From contig NZ_CP084090.1 of NCBI RefSeq assembly GCF_020217425.1, positions 2,170,001 to 2,234,000 of the forward strand: a stretch of DNA of 64,000 nucleotides. The letters are read 5' to 3'. The stretch's first letter is position 1, and every line of letters begins with the position of its first letter. Shown here one piece after another: positions 15,976 to 53,560 of this stretch. The notes below the pieces were generated by a model. That model searched no databases. It was not told the DNA's origin and saw only the letters and a list, made by a program, of their open reading frames with translations. Made by a program: the position numbers and the translations under genes. The DNA comes from Halomicrobium urmianum (GTDB taxonomy: Archaea > Halobacteriota > Halobacteria > Halobacteriales > Haloarculaceae).

Positions 15976-17679
15976 CTAGTCGTTGCGGAGGTCCCGGGCG
16001 GTGTCGTTGAGGTCCTGCAGCACCTCGTCCTGCTCCTCGGCGACCTCGGTGGCCCTGGTCGCGAGGTCGTTGACCTCCTCGGAGAGGTCCTCGGCGCTCT
16101 CGACAGTCGCGGTCACCTCCTCGACGCGGCTGGCCTGGTCGTCGTTGGCGCGGGCGAGCTCCTCGACGCCGGTCGCGGCCTCGTCGATGGCGTCGGCGGT
16201 CGCGTCCATGGCCTCGAGGGCGGTCTCGATCTGCTCGCCGGCCTCCTCCAGGCGCCGGTTCGAGTCGGCCACGGCCTCGACCGTGGCGTCGGTCTGCTCG
16301 TCGATGACGTCGATCTGGTCGGCGATCTCCGCGGTCCGCTCCTGGGTCTCGTTGGCGAGGCTCTTGACCTCCTCGGCGACGACGGTGAACCCGCTGCCGT
16401 CCTCGCCGGCGCGGGCGGCCTCGATGTTGGCGTTCAGCGCCAGCAGGTTCGTCTGCTCGGCGATGTCCTCGATGACCTCGACGATCTCGACGATCTCGTC
16501 GAGCTGGGTCTCCAGTTCGTCCATCTCCGCCTCGACGCGCTCGCCGGCCTCGACGATCTCCTCGGTGGCCTCGTCGGCGGAGGCGGACGCGTCCTGGCCG
16601 CTCTCGGCGGCCTCGCGGGCCTGCTGGGCGCTGGTCGAGACCTGGTCAGCGGTCGCGGCGATCTCCTCCATCGAGGCGGAGAAGGAGGACATCTCGTCGG
16701 CGACCTCCTGGAGCAGCTCGAGTTGCTCCTCGGTGCGGTCGTCGGCCTCGTCCATGGCCGACGCCGTCTCGTCGGCGAGGTCGCAGACGTACTCGACCTT
16801 CTCCCGGATGTCGTCGGTCAGCGTCTCCAGCGTCCCGGCCATCTCGTTGACGTGGGTGACGACCTCGACGACCTCGTCGTCGAGGACCGCCTCGGCCTCC
16901 GCCGGGGCCTGTGCCCGGACCGAGAGGTCGCCGCTACCGACCGCGTCCAGCGTCGTCGCGACCTCCTCGACGAGCGACCGGATGGCCGCCTCGCGTTCGA
17001 CCTGGTCGCTCTGGTCGTACACCATCTCGACGACGCACTCGAGGTCGCCGTGCTCGTCGAACAGCGGCTGCGCGGTGAACCAGATGGGGATCTCCTCGCC
17101 GCTGGCGTCGAGCATCGTGCTCTCGTCCTCGTAGCGGATCACGCCGACGTCTCCGTTCCGGTTGACGCCGTACTGCTCGTGGGCGGTCCGCGGCGCGTCG
17201 ACGATCTTGTCCGCCAGCGTCTTCGAGCGCCGGTCGTCCTGGTAGAACGCCGTCGCCGACTCCGCGGTGCCGACGACGTCCTCGCGGTCGGTGCCGCACA
17301 GCTCCTCGGCGCCGCTGTTCCAGGCCAGCACCTCGTGGTCGGGCGCCATCACGAAGATACAGAAGGGCAGCGCGTCGAGGACGTCCTCCGGCCGCAGCCC
17401 CGCGGTCACGAGCCGGCTGTCGGGCGCTCGCCGCGAGGCGGTCCCGTCGCCGCGGTCGGCCTCGTCCCCGGCGTTTTCGTCCTCGGCGCCGTCGCCGGAC
17501 ACGTCGGCAGCGTCGTCGGTCGCGGGACCGCCCTCTGACCGCACCCCGCCGTCGGCGACCCGCCGCTCGCCCGAGCCGGTCGCCGTCCGGTCGTCGGGCG
17601 CGGCTCCCGATCCAGCCTCCGCGAACGACGGGTCGCGACCCGGTACTAACCTGTTGAGCAATCCCGTTATCTGGTTCAT
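15976..17679 (-). CDS. Soluble methyl-accepting chemotaxis transducer with PAS domain
   Basis: The 567-residue protein starts with a disordered Gly/Asp-rich region of about 90 residues. A PAS domain follows ([20 protein letters not shown] through a segment ending EMVYDQSDQ), then a HAMP-like helical stretch and the coiled-coil signalling domain with the tip [18 protein letters not shown] and [13 protein letters not shown]. No membrane span is present, so it senses a cytoplasmic cue through PAS (redox, light or a small molecule) and controls CheA and archaellum switching. Glu/Gln-rich pairs typical of methylation sites flank the tip. A 7-base inverted repeat lies about 41 bases upstream of its ATG. 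Confidence 0.93.
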
Positions 17680-18256: not shown

Positions 18257-18524
18257 GTAGTTGTTCCCGGGTAGCGGGGTTCCGACCGCAGGGAGGAACC
18301 CCGATAGCAGCGAGCGGGAGTGAGCGCAGCGAATACACGTGGGCCGCGAAGTCGCGACCGCAGGGAGCGGCCTCGGAGAGAGCGAGCGGGAACGGAGCGA
18401 AGTGAGGCGACACGCGAGCCGCGAGTAGACCGGCTGGCCCTCGTCCGAACCGCCCCTCAACCGGCCAACCGACCGCAAACGGCGGCGTCGGGGCCGCTGG
18501 CGGCGCACTGGCTGTCCCGCGACC
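18257..18524. other. Intergenic stretch between divergent genes, repeat-rich
   Basis: No gene is seen. The stretch contains GAGCG/GAACGGAGCGAAG-type low-complexity words, including GAGCGCAGCGA and GAGCGAAGTGA. These are reverse complements of the 11-base hairpin loops found at 45029 and related sites, but flanking arms are not convincingly complementary here. Confidence 0.4.
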
Positions 18525-36048: not shown

Positions 36049-39090
<3,042 letters not shown>

Positions 39091-44361: not shown

Positions 44362-44473
44362 ACTGAACTCTGGTCACCGGGCCGGAGTAAGCCTTTCCCT
44401 TCGGACGCCCGGCGGCGGTCGGCGTCCTCGCGGCTCGCGTGTCGCTCACTTCGTTCGCTCTTGCTCGCTCTGC

Positions 44474-44557
44474 CGAGACCTCTCACTGCGTTCGAGGTCT
44501 CGCGGCTCGCATGTCGCCTCGCTGGTTCCGAGGTTCTTCCCTTCGGTCAGAACCTCG
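44474..44557. repeat. Two hairpins with 11-base loops
   Basis: The first is CGAGACCTC/GAGGTCTCG around TCACTGCGTTC (44474-44502). The second is CGAGGTTCT/AGAACCTCG around TCCCTTCGGTC (44529-44557). Both are perfect 9-base stems between divergently oriented secG and trx. Confidence 0.75.
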
Positions 44558-44590
44558 CCGTGGGTAGGCACACCCGGCGAACGCGGTGAC

Positions 44591-44600
44591 AATCCTTATC
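44591..44600 (+). promoter_or_regulatory. TATA-like element before trx
   Basis: AATCCTTATC lies about 32 bases before the ATG at 44629, suggesting a leader of a few bases. Confidence 0.45.
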
Positions 44601-44628
44601 CCGCCTGCCGGGTAAGTACGTGGCGAGT

Positions 44629-44895
44629 ATGTCTGTCACGCTCAAGGACTTCTACGCCGACTGGTGCGGTCCGTGCAAGACTCAGGACCCCATCCTGGAG
44701 GAACTCGAGGAAGACTGGCCGGACGTCGACTTCGAGAAGGTCGACGTCGACGAGGAGCAGGACGTGGCCAACGAGTATCAGGTCCGCTCGCTCCCGACGC
44801 TGGTCGTCGAGAACGACGACGGCGTCGTCGAGCGCTTCGTCGGCGTCACCCAGCGCGACGACCTCGAAGAGGCCCTGCAGACGGCCGAAGCGTAA
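44629..44895 (+). CDS. trxA: Thioredoxin
   Basis: This 88-residue, minimal-length thioredoxin has the classical active site FYADWCGPCKTQDP (CGPC at residues 16-19), a KVDVDEEQ strand, the cis-proline in SLPTLVVE and a terminal helix. It is cytoplasmic and reduces protein disulfides with electrons from a thioredoxin reductase that is not in the window. An ATG nine bases upstream is less likely because the TATA spacing and family N terminus favour MSVTLKDFY. Confidence 0.92.
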   Translation: MSVTLKDFYADWCGPCKTQDPILEELEEDWPDVDFEKVDVDEEQDVANEYQVRSLPTLVVENDDGVVERFVGVTQRDDLEEALQTAEA

Positions 44896-45010
44896 CTGTC
44901 GGCTTCTCGGCGGCCGATCGGCCGCCTCGCGTCGCTACCGTCCAGTAGCGGCGTCTCTGATCACGACGGATTTCGCCGTCGACGCTGCTCACGGGTCGCT
45001 CCGCTCCCCG

Positions 45011-45045
45011 CTCGCTGGTTCCGAGGGCTCGCTGCGCTCGCCCTC
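45011..45045. repeat. Hairpin with 11-base loop at the end of npdG
   Basis: GAGGGC/GCCCTC surround TCGCTGCGCTC (45023-45045). The hairpin is preceded by CTCGCTGGTTCCGAGG, a 16-base stretch also found just before the second hairpin at 44517-44532. It overlaps the npdG stop codon. Confidence 0.65.
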
Positions 45046-45712
45046 AACGGAACTCCAGCCCGAGATCGTGCATCCCGTCGTTGTGCCGCGCGACGTTGAT
45101 CAAAAGCGGCGTCACCGCCTCGACCTCGGCGGCGTTCTCCAGGGGGCCGCCGTCAAGCGGCCGGAGCCCCTCGATGGACTCGGCCAGTTCCATCACGGTC
45201 GCCTTGGCGTCGCCGTCGTCGCCGACGACGACGGTGTCCCACTCGAGGGTGACGTCGAGGTTGGCCAGCCGGCCGGCCGCGAGGTTGTGGAACGCGCCGA
45301 CGACGGAGACGTCCTCCGGCGCGGCGCTGGCCGCCAGTTGCGTCACGCTGCCGGCGCCGGGGCGGTTGTAGTGAAAGCCCGCCTCGTCGCGCTTCATGCC
45401 GACGGCGGGGGAGACGAGCACGTCGGTCGGTTCCAGTTCGTCGGCCACGGCCTCGACGGTGTCCGTCAGGTGGTAGGCCGGGACGGCGGCGACGACGACG
45501 TCCGCCCGCGCGGCCGCCTCCTCGTTGGCCAGGCCGTCGATGTAGGCCTCGACGCCGCGACTGTCCAGTTCCGTCTCGTACTCCTCGGCCTTGTGCGCGG
45601 CGCGGTCGGCGTCGCGCGAGCCGATGATCACGTCGTGGGGCGAGTCGTAGGCCCACCGCAGCGCCAGTCCCTCGCCGATGTCGCCCGTGCCGCCGAGCAA
45701 CGCGATGTCCAT
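45044..45712 (-). CDS. npdG: NADPH-dependent F420 reductase
   Basis: The 222-residue protein starts MDIALLGGTGDIGEGLALRW, the GxGxxG nucleotide fold typical of F420H2:NADP oxidoreductases. DVIIGSRDADRA (NADP phosphate contact), ADVVVAAVPAYHL, LVSPAVGMKRDEAGFHY and VVGAFHNLAAGRL follow. It transfers hydride between F420 and NADP. The start was chosen at the ATG that begins directly with the first strand; 32 upstream codons include a His/Asn-rich stretch without match. Confidence 0.92.
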   Translation of the reverse strand: MDIALLGGTGDIGEGLALRWAYDSPHDVIIGSRDADRAAHKAEEYETELDSRGVEAYIDGLANEEAAARADVVVAAVPAYHLTDTVEAVADELEPTDVLVSPAVGMKRDEAGFHYNRPGAGSVTQLAASAAPEDVSVVGAFHNLAAGRLANLDVTLEWDTVVVGDDGDAKATVMELAESIEGLRPLDGGPLENAAEVEAVTPLLINVARHNDGMHDLGLEFR

Positions 45713-45823
45713 GTCGAGGAATTGGACGAACGGCGAATAAGCGTTGTGCGACCGGCCGAGGTTGCCTCGGTCCCGGACGCGGTCGGACGTGTGCGTCCCG
45801 CCCGGCAAATTCGGTCGAGACGG

Positions 45824-46687
45824 CTACTCCAGCAGGTCCGGCAGGTCGTTGACGCTCTCGACGACGGCCGCCGCTCCCTCGCGGCTGTACTTCCGTCGTC
45901 CCTCGTCGCCGGTGAGGCCGCCGGTCAGCACGCCGACGCCGTAGTAGACCCGCTCGTCGGCCGCGTCGGCGTTGACCGCCGTCCGAACGTCGTCGAGCGT
46001 GTCGCCGACGAAGGCCACCCGATCGGCGCCGAACCGCTCGGCCAGCGTCACTAACGCGGCCGGGTCGGGCTTGCCCTCGTCCCAGTCGTCCATCGTGAAG
46101 CGGTGCTCGTCGGACACGTCCAGCCCCGCCCGCACCAGCGCGATGTCGGCCTCCGCGGCCGGCCGGCCCGTCAGGACGCCCACGTCGTAGCGCTCCCGGA
46201 GTTCGGCGACCGTCCCCTCGTCGACGATGACCGGCTCGTCGTGGATGAACCCCGCCGTCTCGAGATCGGGTTCGCCCCCCTCCAGGTCGCGGTAGAGGTC
46301 GCTCCCGAGGTACAGCCGCTGGAAGACGTCGCGGAGCCGTTCGGGGTCCCACTCCTCGAAGACGTCCTCGGCGTCCGTCTCGGGGAGCGCGTCCCGGACC
46401 ACGGCCTCCGCCGCGTCCAGGCCGCCGCCGCGCTCGGCGATGCGGTCGGTGAACTCATCGACGCCGAGGTCGAACCCCGACTGCGAGCCCAGCACGTACA
46501 GGGCCGCCGCGTACGTCAGCTCCCAGTCGTTGTTGAACCCGCCAGCGTCCTTGAACGGCTGAATCTCGGCCCGGTCGATCGTCTCGCCGTACACCCGCTC
46601 GACGGACTCGACGATCGCGCGCCGGTAGGAGTCGGCCACGTCCACCAGCACGCCGTCGACGTCGAGCACGACAGCGTCCACGTTCAT
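45824..46687 (-). CDS. HAD-superfamily hydrolase (TIGR01548-like)
   Basis: The 287-residue protein has motif [21 protein letters not shown], motif [12 protein letters not shown], and motif [25 protein letters not shown] and [15 protein letters not shown]. The cap domain is helical. This subgroup of HAD phosphatases sits close to histidinol-phosphate metabolism in some genomes. The substrate here is unknown, but phosphoglycolate-type or histidinol phosphates are possible. The start MNVDAVVLD was preferred over longer Arg/Pro-rich extensions. Confidence 0.88.
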
Positions 46688-46766
46688 GTCCGCTCCCTGG
46701 CGGCCGGGCCACATTTCGCTTCCCATTCGCGGCGTCGGCGGACCGGCCGGTAGCCGCGCCGCTCCG

Positions 46767-47177
46767 CTACTCCGGCACGCCCGGCCCTTCCTCACGGGCC
46801 CAGTAGAGCGTCTCGCCGTCCGGCAGCGACGCCCGTTCGACGGGAATCGCCGGCCCGTCGCCGCCCAGCGTGGTGAACAGGAAGGCGGCGTCCGCCGCGC
46901 GGGCGGCTTCCCACGTCGGTCGATGCAGTTCCGGCGGGAGGCTCAGCGCGTAGACGGCGTCGACGCTGGCGTAGACGGACGGGTCCGGATCGGTCACGTC
47001 GTCGCGGACGAAGCGGACGCCGTCCGGCGTCGACCGCTCGACGACGTCGGTGGCGGTCACGCCGGTGCCGCGATCTGCCAGCGCCGCGGCGACGGCCGGC
47101 CGCCGGCCGATCCCGACCTCGACGAGCCGGTCGAAGGCGGACAACCGCTCGACGAGGGCGTCGCGGGCGTCGGTCAT
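46767..47177 (-). CDS. UPF0146 family protein
   Basis: This 136-residue archaeal protein has a methyltransferase-like Rossmann core: [63 protein letters not shown], then [16 protein letters not shown]0146 proteins are conserved across Euryarchaeota without a proven function. The S-adenosylmethionine loop is shortened. The ATG is only 39 bases from the ATG of the divergent archaemetzincin gene, so both promoters overlap. Confidence 0.87.
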
Positions 47178-47183
47178 GGCGGG

Positions 47184-47211
47184 ATGTTTATGGTATCCCC
47201 ACCCATATCGC
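47184..47211. promoter_or_regulatory. Overlapping divergent promoters of UPF0146 gene and archaemetzincin
   Basis: ATGTTTATGG (47184-47193) is centred 29 bases before the archaemetzincin ATG at 47217. On the other strand, a TATGGG-type element near 47206-47211 is about 30 bases before the ATG at 47177. Both transcripts would be leaderless and the polymerases would compete for the same few bases. Confidence 0.55.
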
Positions 47212-47216
47212 TTGGC

Positions 47217-47738
47217 ATGCACGTCGACGTCGTGCCGGTGGGTGACATCTCGGCCCGGGTCAAGCGGGAGGCCTCGGACGGCCTGCGCTCGGTGTACGAC
47301 TGCGAGGTCACCATGCACGATCCGGAGTCGGTGCCGACCGGCGCGTACGACGCCAACCGCGACCAGTACCGCGCGGAGGAGTTCATCGACCTGGCCCAGC
47401 GGGTGGGGGACGGCACCAAGAACATCGCGATCACGTCGCACGACCTCTACTACCGGCGGCGCAACTACGTCTTCGGGCTGGCGTACCTCTCCGGTAGCGG
47501 GAGCGTCATCTCGACCAACCGCCTCCAGACGTCCTCCGACGGCGGCTTCTCGAACCGATCGGCCGGCGACATCTTCGCCGACCGCGTCCGCAAAGAAGTC
47601 GTCCACGAGATCGGTCACACGCTCGGCCTCGAGCACTGCGACAACAAGCGCTGCGTCATGAACTTCTCGCCGACCGTCCGCGAGGTCGACGTCAAGGAGC
47701 AGTCGCTGTGCGGCTCCTGCCAGCGCCAGCTCGACTGA
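47217..47738 (+). CDS. amzA: Archaemetzincin metalloprotease
   Basis: The 173-residue protein has the metzincin site KEVVHEIGHTLGLEHCDNKRC (extended HExxHxxGxxH with a following Cys pair) and the Met-turn VMNFS. C-terminal CGSCQ completes the second zinc centre that defines archaemetzincins. It is cytoplasmic, with no signal peptide, and is a single-domain aminopeptidase-like protease of unknown substrate. Leaderless transcription from ATGTTTATGG is expected. Confidence 0.95.
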   Translation: MHVDVVPVGDISARVKREASDGLRSVYDCEVTMHDPESVPTGAYDANRDQYRAEEFIDLAQRVGDGTKNIAITSHDLYYRRRNYVFGLAYLSGSGSVISTNRLQTSSDGGFSNRSAGDIFADRVRKEVVHEIGHTLGLEHCDNKRCVMNFSPTVREVDVKEQSLCGSCQRQLD

Positions 47739-47832
47739 TACGGACCGTCGTGGCGACGTTGCACTCCGACAGTCCGTCCGACGACCCCGCAGCCCCGCGG
47801 TTCTCGCGCTCCCAAATCAGTTAGGCAATATC

Positions 47833-47867
47833 GCTATTTACTGTGTGCTGTTATGACACGTTGTCAT
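47833..47867 (+). promoter_or_regulatory. TATA box and palindrome at the start of the gene at 47866
   Basis: GCTATTTACTG (47833-47843) is 28 bases before the ATG at 47866. ATGACACGTTGTCAT (47853-47867), a 15-base perfect palindrome with a 3-base centre, ends with the start codon itself, so a protein bound there would block transcription start or translation. Confidence 0.5.
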
Positions 47868-48072
47868 GAGCGAGAGTCAATCCAACTCCAGCACCGAGGA
47901 CCTGAGCGACCTCTTCGTCTCCGTCACGGGCGACGACTCCGTCACGGAGCGCCAGGAAGAGGACCAGACCAACCGTGAGGTCGCCGAAGAGGAGGTGATC
48001 GACGTCGACGACGGCCTCGACGACGCCGTCGAGGGTGCCGAGATCGGGACCGTCGGCGACCCGTCGGCCTGA
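47866..48072 (+). CDS. Small highly acidic protein of unknown function
   Basis: The 68-residue protein starts MSESQSNSSTEDLSDLFVSV and consists largely of Asp, Glu, Ser and Thr, with TGDDSVTERQEEDQTNREVA and a final acidic stretch. It has no cysteine, membrane or signal features and is probably disordered. Function unknown. A good TATA box and the palindrome above support transcription. Confidence 0.6.
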   Translation: MSESQSNSSTEDLSDLFVSVTGDDSVTERQEEDQTNREVAEEEVIDVDDGLDDAVEGAEIGTVGDPSA

Positions 48073-48320
48073 CGGCGACGGATGTGAACCGACGGCGAAT
48101 CGACCGCACGCCGTCGTGCGGCCGCGTCGGCCCGCCCGTCACCTGACGGGACGCGTCGCGGACACCCGTCGCTTCTGCCCGCGCATCGACACCGGGACGT
48201 CGGCCACCCCTGACTGGTCACGACGTCCTGATCAGGCGACTGACCGCGAAGCCCCAGTTACGGCGGTCGTACCCGCCGATGCGACCGGGAACACTTGGGG
48301 CTGGCGCTCGATGTGTCAGT

Positions 48321-49370
48321 ATGGTATCGGATCCCTCCGACCGGTGTGGGTTCCGTCTGAACGTCGGCGTCGACGGCGCCGGCCCGGACGAGCCCTGCGA
48401 CCGACCGACGTGGGAGGACCACGACCACTGCATCTGGCACGCCGAGGTCGACGGCAAGACGCGCGATCAACTCGAGGACGCCCGGTCCGATGGTGAAGAC
48501 GGCCTGAACGGCGCGTACCTCCGGGAGGCGTCGCTCGTCGGCGTCGACTGGTTCGCCGACGCGTCGCTGATCGGTGCGGACTTTTCGGGCGCCACGCTCA
48601 TCGACACAGACTTCTCCGGTTCGGATCTCACGCTGGCGACGCTGACGGACGCGAACGGGATCAACGCGGACTTCTCCGGTGCGAACCTGGAAGGCGCGAT
48701 CTTCACGAACGCCGACCTCCGGCGCGCGAACCTGCTGGACGCCTACCTCAACGACGCGGTGCTCACCGACGTCCACATCGGCGAGGAGACCGAGTTCGGC
48801 GATCTGTCCATCTACGAGCGCGAGACCGCCGAACCCGGGTTCGGGAACAACCACCCGCTGGAGGCCGCGTCGTGGACCTACCGCGAACTCCAGCAGCTCT
48901 ACCGCGACAACGCGCTCCCGAAACTGGCCCGCCGGAGCTACAACCTCGAGAAGGACGCCCGACGCCGGCTCGCCTGGACGCAACGCGACTACGGGAACGC
49001 GATCAAGTGGGAGGTCTCGCGGTGGGTGATGCACTACGGCTCCAGCCCATACCGCGTCCTCGGCGTCTCGCTGTCCGTGATCGTGATCTGCGCGCTCCTC
49101 TTCCCGCTCACCGGCGGGATTCAGGAGACGCAGGGCGGACAGGCCATCACCTACACGATCGAAGACCCCGAGGCGACGCCGCTCTGGTGGACGGCCGAGA
49201 TCCTCTACAAGAGCCTCTACTTCAGCATGATCACGTTCGCCACGCTCGGGTACGGCGACATCCAGCCCGTCGGCCCCTACGCCCGCATGCTCGCCGCCGT
49301 CGAGACCATCATCGGCTCCCTGCTGTCGGCGATCCTCGTGTTCGTGCTCACACGAATCGTCACCTGGTGA
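48321..49370 (+). CDS. Pentapeptide-repeat protein fused to an ion-channel pore
   Basis: The 349-residue protein opens with a Cys/His cluster (RCGFRLNVGV, PCDRPTWEDHDHCIWHAE) that could bind zinc. About 18 pentapeptide repeats (residues about 62-155: YLREASLVGVDWFADASLIG, ADFSGATLIDTDFSGSDLTL) form a right-handed beta helix. A linker precedes a first membrane span near residues 243-265 (VLGVSLSVIVICALLFPLTG), a pore loop with selectivity filter TFATLGYGD (residues 305-313), and a last span ending in VTW. Such a 2TM pore should conduct K+ and assemble as a tetramer, with the cytoplasmic helix part as its regulator. Confidence 0.88.
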   Translation: MVSDPSDRCGFRLNVGVDGAGPDEPCDRPTWEDHDHCIWHAEVDGKTRDQLEDARSDGEDGLNGAYLREASLVGVDWFADASLIGADFSGATLIDTDFSGSDLTLATLTDANGINADFSGANLEGAIFTNADLRRANLLDAYLNDAVLTDVHIGEETEFGDLSIYERETAEPGFGNNHPLEAASWTYRELQQLYRDNALPKLARRSYNLEKDARRRLAWTQRDYGNAIKWEVSRWVMHYGSSPYRVLGVSLSVIVICALLFPLTGGIQETQGGQAITYTIEDPEATPLWWTAEILYKSLYFSMITFATLGYGDIQPVGPYARMLAAVETIIGSLLSAILVFVLTRIVTW

Positions 49371-49589
49371 ACGTTCCACGTTGTCGCCACTTTGCCCCAG
49401 GTTTCGAGTGGAGAACCACGACGAGCGGTGGCCGAAAGCGGCCGCCTCCCTGCGATTCACCGATCATTGCGTCTCCCGATCGCCAGTGAGGTACGCCACG
49501 GTTCGCTCCCCGTTTGCCAGTTCAGAGAACCGTCGCTTCACTCAGGAGATCCCTCTCTCACGGTTCCCTGCGGTCACCGCTCGCATATA
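49371..49589. other. Intergenic stretch without a recognisable gene
   Basis: About 220 bases lie between the channel gene and a nested hairpin. Open frames are present but give no recognisable family. It may contain decayed mobile-element sequence continuous with the IS end further right. Confidence 0.35.
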
Positions 49590-49634
49590 GGAGGTTCTCA
49601 CGCCGCTCACTGCGTTCGCGGCGGTCAAACCTCC
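49590..49634. repeat. Nested hairpin with the 11-base loop TCACTGCGTTC
   Basis: An outer stem GGAGGTT/AACCTCC (49590-49596 and 49628-49634) encloses an inner stem CGCCGC/GCGGCG around TCACTGCGTTC (49601-49623). The loop is identical to that at 44483-44493. Confidence 0.7.
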
Positions 49635-52600: not shown

Positions 52601-53560
52601 ATGGTCACGCTCGACGACCGGGACACCGCGACGCTCTGGCGGCTCCGCCGGGGCGACGCCGACGTGGGAACGCTGGCCGAGACGGTCCGGTGCGACCCCT
52701 CGCCCCTCCAGGACCGGCTGGCCGAACTCGCGGACAACGGGCTGGTCGCCGCCGTCGACGGCGGGTATCGCATCACCAGCGACGGCGAGCGCGTCCTCGC
52801 GGCCAGCGGGACGGGAGCCGACGACGACCGGATCGACACGTCGCCGGACGTCGAGCAACGGATCGAGTCGTTCGCCCTCCGGGCCGACAGGGAGGCTGCT
52901 GTCCGGTCGGCCTTCGCCGTCCTCCACTACTGGGGCGACGCTACCCGGGGGGAGATCATCGACGCCGTCTACAGCGAGGACCCCGCCGGCTACGAGACGC
53001 GCGACGAATGGTGGGGCGAGGGCGTCCGCGCGAACGAAGCGAGTGCGGGCTCAGAAGACGACCAGCGGGAGTCTTCTGGCGTTCGAGAGTACCTGGCCGA
53101 CCTCCCCACCGTCGATCCGCCGGACTCGCCCGACGCGCCCGGTGCCACGTGGCGCTACGAGGGGACGCCGACCGTCGCGGAACTGACCGACGATGGCCGC
53201 GTCCTCCTCGAACGAGCGGTGACGCCCTTCAGCGCCCGGTTCGCCGTCGAGCGGCTGGACCTGTCCGACGACGAGCGAGCGGCGGTCCGGGCCGCCGTCG
53301 ACTGGCTCGTCCGCGAGGGCGAGAGCGACGCCGAGGGGATCGCGGACGCGGTGTTCGGCAACTATCCCGCAGGTCACGACTCGCCGGAGAAGTGGTGGGC
53401 CAGTTGCGTCGAGCCCGCGTTCGAGGCGATACCGGGCGTCCAACGTGCGGACAGCGAAGAGGAGCGGTGGCGCTATCGGCAGCGGTCGATCGGCCGGACG
53501 TCGACCGATCCCGGCGCGGGCCTGCCCGACGAGTCGCTGGCGTCGGACGAGGACCCGTGA
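52601..53560 (+). CDS. Winged-helix protein with an internal duplication
   Basis: The 319-residue protein begins with a DNA-binding winged helix (LDDRDTATLWRLRRGDADVG, CDPSPLQDRLAELADNGLVA). Two copies of a domain follow: residues about 96-186 and 224-296, each starting REAAVRS/RAAVRA, holding PAGYETRDEWW or PAGHDSPEKWW and ending in WRY. I do not recognise the duplicated domain; its helices and WW pair suggest a protein-protein or DNA contact module. No membrane or signal features are seen. Confidence 0.7.
   Translation: MVTLDDRDTATLWRLRRGDADVGTLAETVRCDPSPLQDRLAELADNGLVAAVDGGYRITSDGERVLAASGTGADDDRIDTSPDVEQRIESFALRADREAAVRSAFAVLHYWGDATRGEIIDAVYSEDPAGYETRDEWWGEGVRANEASAGSEDDQRESSGVREYLADLPTVDPPDSPDAPGATWRYEGTPTVAELTDDGRVLLERAVTPFSARFAVERLDLSDDERAAVRAAVDWLVREGESDAEGIADAVFGNYPAGHDSPEKWWASCVEPAFEAIPGVQRADSEEERWRYRQRSIGRTSTDPGAGLPDESLASDEDP

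Follow-up and report, generated by a model that had tools for sequence, protein, structure and literature searches.

Hairpins with a conserved tip and free stems: probable mobile palindromic DNA repeats of haloarchaea

Introduction

Genomic repeats are usually recognised by their sequence. The 64,000-nucleotide stretch of the haloarchaeon Halomicrobium urmianum considered here (the window; NCBI RefSeq assembly GCF_020217425.1, contig NZ_CP084090.1, positions 2,170,001 to 2,234,000) raises the question of how a hairpin can keep its tip while its stem is free to change. A first-pass annotation of this DNA had reported five hairpins with the same 11-base loop on perfect but unrelated stems, and had proposed either a selected structure or an element copying its loop alone. 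We describe a hairpin family that keeps its tip, a few unpaired bases and its geometry, while the stems differ in almost every copy and ordinary repeat finders therefore easily miss it. The evidence makes it probable that these hairpins are small mobile DNA palindromes spread across the haloarchaea, akin to the repetitive extragenic palindromic (REP) sequences of bacteria and recognised by single-stranded shape. A description of the family was not found in open papers, the subscription literature lying outside this search.

The conserved tip

In the window the pattern TC-N-C-N3-G-N-TC closed by a stem of at least 6 bp occurs at 8 sites, where Markov shuffling of order 1 to 5 would lead one to expect 0.03-0.07. 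The site at 16485 lies in a simple CTCGACGA repeat and is probably a chance match. All five loops reported earlier lie where they were placed and are closed by perfect stems (9 bp around 44483-44493 and 44538-44548, 6 bp around 45029-45039 and 49607-49617, and 7 bp around 37713-37723 in uvrA). Three or four further hairpins had escaped that annotation, at 18284 (9 bp), at 53060 (8 bp) and, on 4-bp stems, at 44996 and 49565, and the window holds at least eight hairpins with the conserved tip. Genome-wide counts at chance level had been named as the outcome that would undo the observation; the counts lie far above chance, and the observation stands.

Read on the opposite strand, the 'loop' is a folded tip, GA-N-C-GNA-G-N'-GA, consisting of a GNA triloop flanked by covarying N and N'. 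The tip is nearly constant, yet the earlier description of a single shared loop calls for refinement: 5 of the 11 positions vary, two of them forming the covarying base pair. Among 464 kb of the genome there are 38 GNA-triloop tips with stems of at least 5 bp, in 35 of which N and N' form a Watson-Crick pair, while altered control loops in the same 464 kb mostly yield no site with such a stem (the GNC triloop yields 2). Extended to 1.264 Mb, the scan gives 87 sites with stems of at least 5 bp, and the N:N' pair is present in 82 of these (G:C 51, A:T 22, C:G 9; 5 exceptions). The triloop is GAA in 41 cases, GCA in 19, GGA in 15 and GTA in 7, and of 82 hairpins 78 have a pyrimidine (C or T) directly before the first GA. 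Both the triloop controls and the N:N' covariation bear out the earlier proposal that a conserved tip on free, compensating stems is a genuine structure. The strong base-level covariation counts obtained on A1, whose rows were chosen for perfect stems, are not used as evidence.

The facing GA/GA steps could form tandem sheared G·A pairs, and a second such step, lower in the stem, is directly visible in some hairpins. The tip core, CGNAG, is that of very stable DNA minihairpins, for example d(GCGAAGC), which carry GNA loops. The likeness extends to (G/A/C)CGNAG(C/T/G), in which a C-G pair closes the same triloop; the haloarchaeal tip, however, occurs naturally in genomes at high copy number and has GA/GA beneath it. 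Minihairpins with GNA loops serve in aptamers (PMC4686876).

The two-hairpin unit

When neighbouring hairpins are aligned, many prove to belong to a unit of 48-57 bp with the form T-[6-bp hairpin with tip]-GCT-[8-9-bp hairpin]-GYG, in which the second hairpin, on a stem of 8 or 9 bp, is capped either by the tip or by a loop of 3-4 bases. The GCT spacer is present in 41 of 63 units and the T ahead of the first hairpin in 49 of 63; the 41 units with GCT measure 57 bp (23 units), 51 bp (9), 50 bp (6) or 48 bp (2). The first stem is 6 bp long and mostly starts with CC, the left four bases at the foot are GGCG in 23 units, GTGG in 6 and others in the remainder, and CGT+C is present at many feet. 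The two ends of the unit are T and GYG, without a terminal inverted repeat spanning it. When the frame GNGT-N6-tip-N6-GCTC is selected with stems ignored, at least 5 of the 6 possible Watson-Crick pairs form in 24 of 27 distinct cases. The suggestion that an element copies only its loop comes close but is too narrow, since many hairpins belong to this unit, which besides the tip also keeps the unpaired T, GCT and GYG.

Insertion into genes and intergenic sites

Units inserted in frame are found in two genes of the window. In uvrA, on the reverse strand, alignment of UvrA proteins reveals an in-frame insertion of 51 bp (17 amino acids; 37687..37737) with two hairpins, bounded by direct repeats GACGGAA (TTCCGTC on the forward strand) at 37680-37686 and 37731-37737. 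The first hairpin is GTTCCGC-GAGCGATGCGA-GCGGAAC (37706..37730; 7 bp), and the second is CGTCGGAGG-TTC-CCTCCGACG (37683..37703; 9 bp). The first-pass annotation had grouped this locus with the others, and the unit architecture upholds the grouping, even though GAT here takes the place of a GNA triloop. The insertion is carried by the genome itself, by three members of the genus and by a Halorientalis metagenome-assembled genome, and is missing from the other haloarchaeal UvrA proteins aligned. In the Halorientalis protein an insertion of the same length lies at the same place with diverged sequence (DGSSASETGGASSEGPAGG), and could be inherited, transferred or independent. The second gene, an open reading frame at 52601-53560, contains in frame and on the forward strand a 57-bp unit (53025..53081) composed of T, the hairpin CCGCGC-GAACGAAGCGA-GTGCGG, the spacer GCT, the hairpin CAGAAGAC-GACCAGCGGGA-GTCTTCTG and GCG. 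This unit, which matches the covariance model R1 of the first hairpin and its flanks with an E-value of 1.6e-6, adds exactly 19 amino acids and falls opposite a gap in three homologues.

That the units insert is shown by the existence of both filled and empty sites. A 54-bp unit present in one sister species is absent from the other, and at another place 60 bp that include two hairpins in one of them stand opposite 3 bp. In the sampled genomes the sequence AAAAACGTGGGCGAAAAA recurs empty and also recurs in the filled form AAAAACGTGGT-unit-GGTGGCGAAAAA, with the unit placed after AAAAACGTGG, some filled copies being counted twice in overlapping loci. Matching unit ends exceed chance (16 against 9.9 expected, p 0.0006), an excess to which tandem units may contribute. 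A strict target-site duplication is nevertheless absent; the idea draws partial support from this end matching and none from the AAAAACGTGG/GCGAAAAA site.

The 18-mer AAAAACGTGGGCGAAAAA itself (reverse TTTTTCGCCCACGTTTTT) is intergenic, with 11 matches in sampled loci of the H. urmianum genome and sister species (L084, L088, L092, L100, L106, L126, L129 and L142). Hairpin units interrupt some of its copies, and the 18-mer may serve as a recurring transcription terminator and as a preferred insertion site.

Distribution across genomes

At an E-value of 0.01, R1 finds 99 matches in the H. urmianum genome, and its two sister-species counts are 119 and 86. Counts are lower in most other haloarchaeal genera. 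Among named genomes, R1 yields 54 matches in Halosimplex salinum, 24 in Halococcus thailandensis, 21 in Halorussus aquaticus and 15 in Halomicrobium katesii, but none in Natrialba aegyptia or Halarchaeum rubridurum. R2, which models the general hairpin over 23 nt, gives 127 matches among 133 candidates scored in the H. urmianum genome. Six further genomes of the order have 10-58 matches each, whereas 53 genomes from the rest of the phylum have 0-7, mostly 0; simple pattern counts against a reversed control agree with this distribution. Hairpins with the matching tip are order-wide in haloarchaea, which carry hundreds of these tiny palindromes, and scarcely occur in the rest of the phylum. Five phylum members outside the order (G044, G045, G070, G025 and G046) have four to seven weak R2 matches each, which might be due to chance or to a distantly related family. 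Viral carriage is unsupported, the unit pattern being without a match in IMG/VR.

Within the genome, genes were called with a purpose-written codon-usage gene finder and 82 hairpins were placed. The hairpins are densest where genes converge (0.76 per kb, 24 in 31.4 kb), followed by tandem (29 in 111 kb, 0.26 per kb) and divergent (14 in 55.7 kb, 0.25 per kb) intergenic DNA, with only 0.012 per kb inside genes. Because the genome was sampled in stretches, part of them picked by motif matches, these densities are approximate and too high in absolute terms, but the ratio between the gene-arrangement classes should be little affected. A replication-strand bias was rejected, its signs being mixed along the chromosome.

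Turnover of stems between sister species

Two sister species, 91-94% identical over most larger aligned blocks, were compared over 500 kb each, which contain 25 and 24 hairpins. Among these 49 not one identical hairpin was found at an orthologous site, most being unassignable since their flanks are rearranged or not alignable; for the 8 hairpins with both flanks aligned, the intervening sequence differs in all 8. Whole hairpins are thus replaced within conserved flanks. For example, GGAGGTCT-GAACGCAGTGA-AGACCTCC stands, in outline, opposite GGGGGCGC-GCGAAGC-GCGCCCCC, GAAGGTTCC-GACCGCAGGGA-GGAACCTTC opposite GAGGGCGCGC-GAA-GCGCGCCCTC, and a tip hairpin GAAGAC..GTCTTC opposite TCAGAG-CTTG-CTCTGA. 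Some of the replacing hairpins are identical to neighbours in the same array, and gene conversion within arrays is therefore a likely route of replacement. In contrast to this turnover, the stems of the uvrA hairpins, which are under protein constraint, are kept across the genus.

Comparison with known repeats

Bacterial GTAG and CGTC REPs are short, numerous and extragenic, and sometimes lie in frame in repair genes including uvrA; RPE-4 and RPE-6 of Rickettsia are CGTC REPs (PMC3733652). In the broad sense the haloarchaeal family is REP-like, being a short palindrome with about 100 units in the H. urmianum genome, an intergenic excess and filled and empty sites. Like REPs, its members often form dimers or clusters and occasionally stand in frame, uvrA included, and REPs too have families with alternative complementary stems. 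The haloarchaeal unit differs in lacking the GTAG tag (its foot is mostly GGCG-T or GTGG-T), in having an 11-nt structured tip where REP loops are short, in forming a direct-repeat dimer with a GCT spacer, and in stems that vary far more widely and without G.T preference. The hosts also differ, haloarchaea being unnamed in the text of PMC3733652. Assignment to the GTAG REPs was rejected on the foot sequence, on the several unit-rich genomes that lack a match to the Y1 transposase family PF01797 and on the four Y1 loci examined, which lack these hairpins. Assignment to the CGTC REPs, which have a CGTC tag, an 8-9-bp stem starting from AT, a 4-5-nt loop and a CCA tail, fails on the 6-bp stem starting mostly with CC, the 11-nt tip and the GCT that follows. 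Nor is the unit a miniature inverted-repeat transposable element (MITE), as no terminal inverted repeat runs across it and its ends match only in part. The palindromic elements of Rickettsia likewise insert in protein genes, uvrB among them, but their stems are family-specific, whereas the haloarchaeal constancy is confined to the tip and the unpaired bases.

The palindrome-associated transposable elements (PATEs) of Haloquadratum lack a transposase, have IS605-like palindromic ends and include terminal-only forms near 52 bp (PMC3119063). They share with the units a haloarchaeal host, the missing transposase, palindromes near the ends, the want of a clear target duplication and this length in their terminal-only form. 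No link between units and PATEs was found, and the units are not evidently derived from IS605.

Weighing the explanations

In the explanation that we favour and judge probable, the conserved feature would be a single-stranded DNA shape, in which a free stem carries a compact tip made of a GNA triloop, the C-G pair that closes it, a second base pair and the facing GA/GA, the commonest mobile form being the two-hairpin unit. An enzyme would recognise the folded single strand through the tip and the unpaired bases, which could explain why the stem sequence is free, and hairpins would be renewed as whole cassettes, by gene conversion or template switching and not by slow compensatory mutation, which could explain why the stems stay perfect. 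Several observations weigh against this explanation. No mobilising enzyme was found, and a clean target-site duplication was not found beyond the excess of matching ends. In nearest-neighbour folding the tip carries no more than modest weight, and its inner pairs are predicted for RNA but in some cases not for DNA. Hairpins inside genes lie without exception on the coding strand (13:0), and clusters in tandem intergenic DNA lean the same way; the former may reflect which reading of the tip proteins tolerate.

A rival explanation invokes structured RNA elements, such as stabilisers of 3' untranslated regions, terminators or protein-binding hairpins, which would be selected in the transcript and whose stems would drift by compensatory mutation. 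In its favour, folding is better for the GA strand than for the complementary strand, especially as RNA, the highest density lies between convergent genes and some arrays directly precede T-tracts. Yet an early same-strand bias among 35 hairpins shrank, with 82 hairpins, to 15:8 for clusters in tandem intergenic regions, which is not significant, and orientation is even in divergent and convergent regions; an adjacent T run occurs in only few arrays, and the earlier view that ordinary terminators do not explain the pattern is sustained. Mismatches are without an excess of G.U over A.C, as hairpins with a single mismatch (G.T 9, A.C 13, other 12) and those of the frame test (G.T 7, A.C 4, other 9) indicate, both numbers being small. 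An Rfam search of seven hairpin-rich loci matched none of the hairpins, its sole find being one tRNA. Moreover, units insert into coding regions and no hairpin was found unchanged between the sister species. We therefore regard structured RNA as a doubtful explanation: the missing G·U preference and the weak intergenic orientation bias favour DNA shape over RNA structure, such that the proposed 'selected structure' is genuine as structure while selection on RNA is not favoured. Equally doubtful, in our estimate, is the proposal that the units are remnants or passengers of IS200/IS605-type (Y1/HUH) transposons, comparable to PATEs or to systems of REPs and REP-associated tyrosine transposases. 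Such an origin would fit single-stranded DNA hairpins near both ends, the lack of a clear target duplication, the resemblance in length to the 52-bp PATEs (PMC3119063) and the bacterial REPs in frame in uvrA (PMC3733652). However, the presence of Y1 transposases is not linked to the number of units: PF01797 matches are missing from three genomes that contain 62, 39 and 26 units, one PF01797-positive genome has zero units, and the four Y1 loci examined contain no tip hairpin with a stem of at least 4 bp, for which reasons a Y1 transposase was rejected as the driver. The palindromes of PATEs, furthermore, resemble IS605 ends, whereas the stems of the units are free; the comparison covered part of the IS605 ends in these genomes.

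Two further explanations were weighed. In one, palindromes arise de novo by intrastrand template switching at the self-folding tip (snap-back synthesis), no dedicated enzyme being required and the stem being an inverted copy of the flank. Quasipalindrome correction is an established mutational process, and the scheme accounts for stems that are free yet perfect, for the constant tip and for wholesale stem replacement. It leaves unexplained the fixed unit lengths, the GCT spacer and the clean 51- and 57-bp insertions, and templating cannot produce GA/GA, so that the tip must pre-exist; we hold it to be the least probable of the alternatives. Somewhat less remote, though still unlikely, is a so far unrecognised haloarchaeal process, enzymatic or replicative, that reads the folded single-stranded tip and installs or renews hairpin cassettes with fresh stems at fixed places. 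Under such a process the shape of a mobile element would persist while its sequence changed far more rapidly than that of neighbouring genes. The family as described provides a natural experiment separating DNA-level from RNA-level structure, accounts for short unexplained insertions in haloarchaeal proteins, UvrA included, and offers a clear target for finding an archaeal DNA enzyme that reads shape or a process that renews hairpins.

Other hairpins and repeats

The window holds further hairpins of this kind. On the forward strand, CGGGGTTCC-GACCGCAGGGA-GGAACCCCG (18275..18303; 9-bp stem) heads an array that extends to about 18435 and has a DNA folding energy of -11.3 kcal/mol (z -4.0). The others are on the reverse strand. 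They include the two 9-bp hairpins CGAGACCTC-GAACGCAGTGA-GAGGTCTCG (44474..44502), within an array at about 44420-44557 upstream of a thioredoxin-like gene, and CGAGGTTCT-GACCGAAGGGA-AGAACCTCG (44529..44557). At 44992..45010 the 4-bp stem of CGGG-GAGCGGAGCGA-CCCG is possibly extended by a second GA/GA step. Convergent genes flank both 6-bp hairpins, GAGGGC-GAGCGCAGCGA-GCCCTC (45023..45045) and CGCCGC-GAACGCAGTGA-GCGGCG (49601..49623), and CGGT-GACCGCAGGGA-ACCG (49561..49579) has a stem of 4 bp.

Other repeats were encountered in the same material. An intergenic repeat with the ends GAAAGCCCTCGGCGCGCTCGA and CCTCGCCCTTTCAGTCC occurs in two sister species and often bears tip hairpins (L103:15958-16675 and other loci). 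A 103-bp insertion (L161:12061-12163), bounded by TAGTGGTGGTTGTAA..TTACAACCACCA and missing from the sister species, is a probable MITE. Finally, the 23-mer CCCCTCGATGTGTGAATAGTTTC is present four times in 464 kb of the H. urmianum genome, possibly as clustered regularly interspaced short palindromic (CRISPR) repeats.

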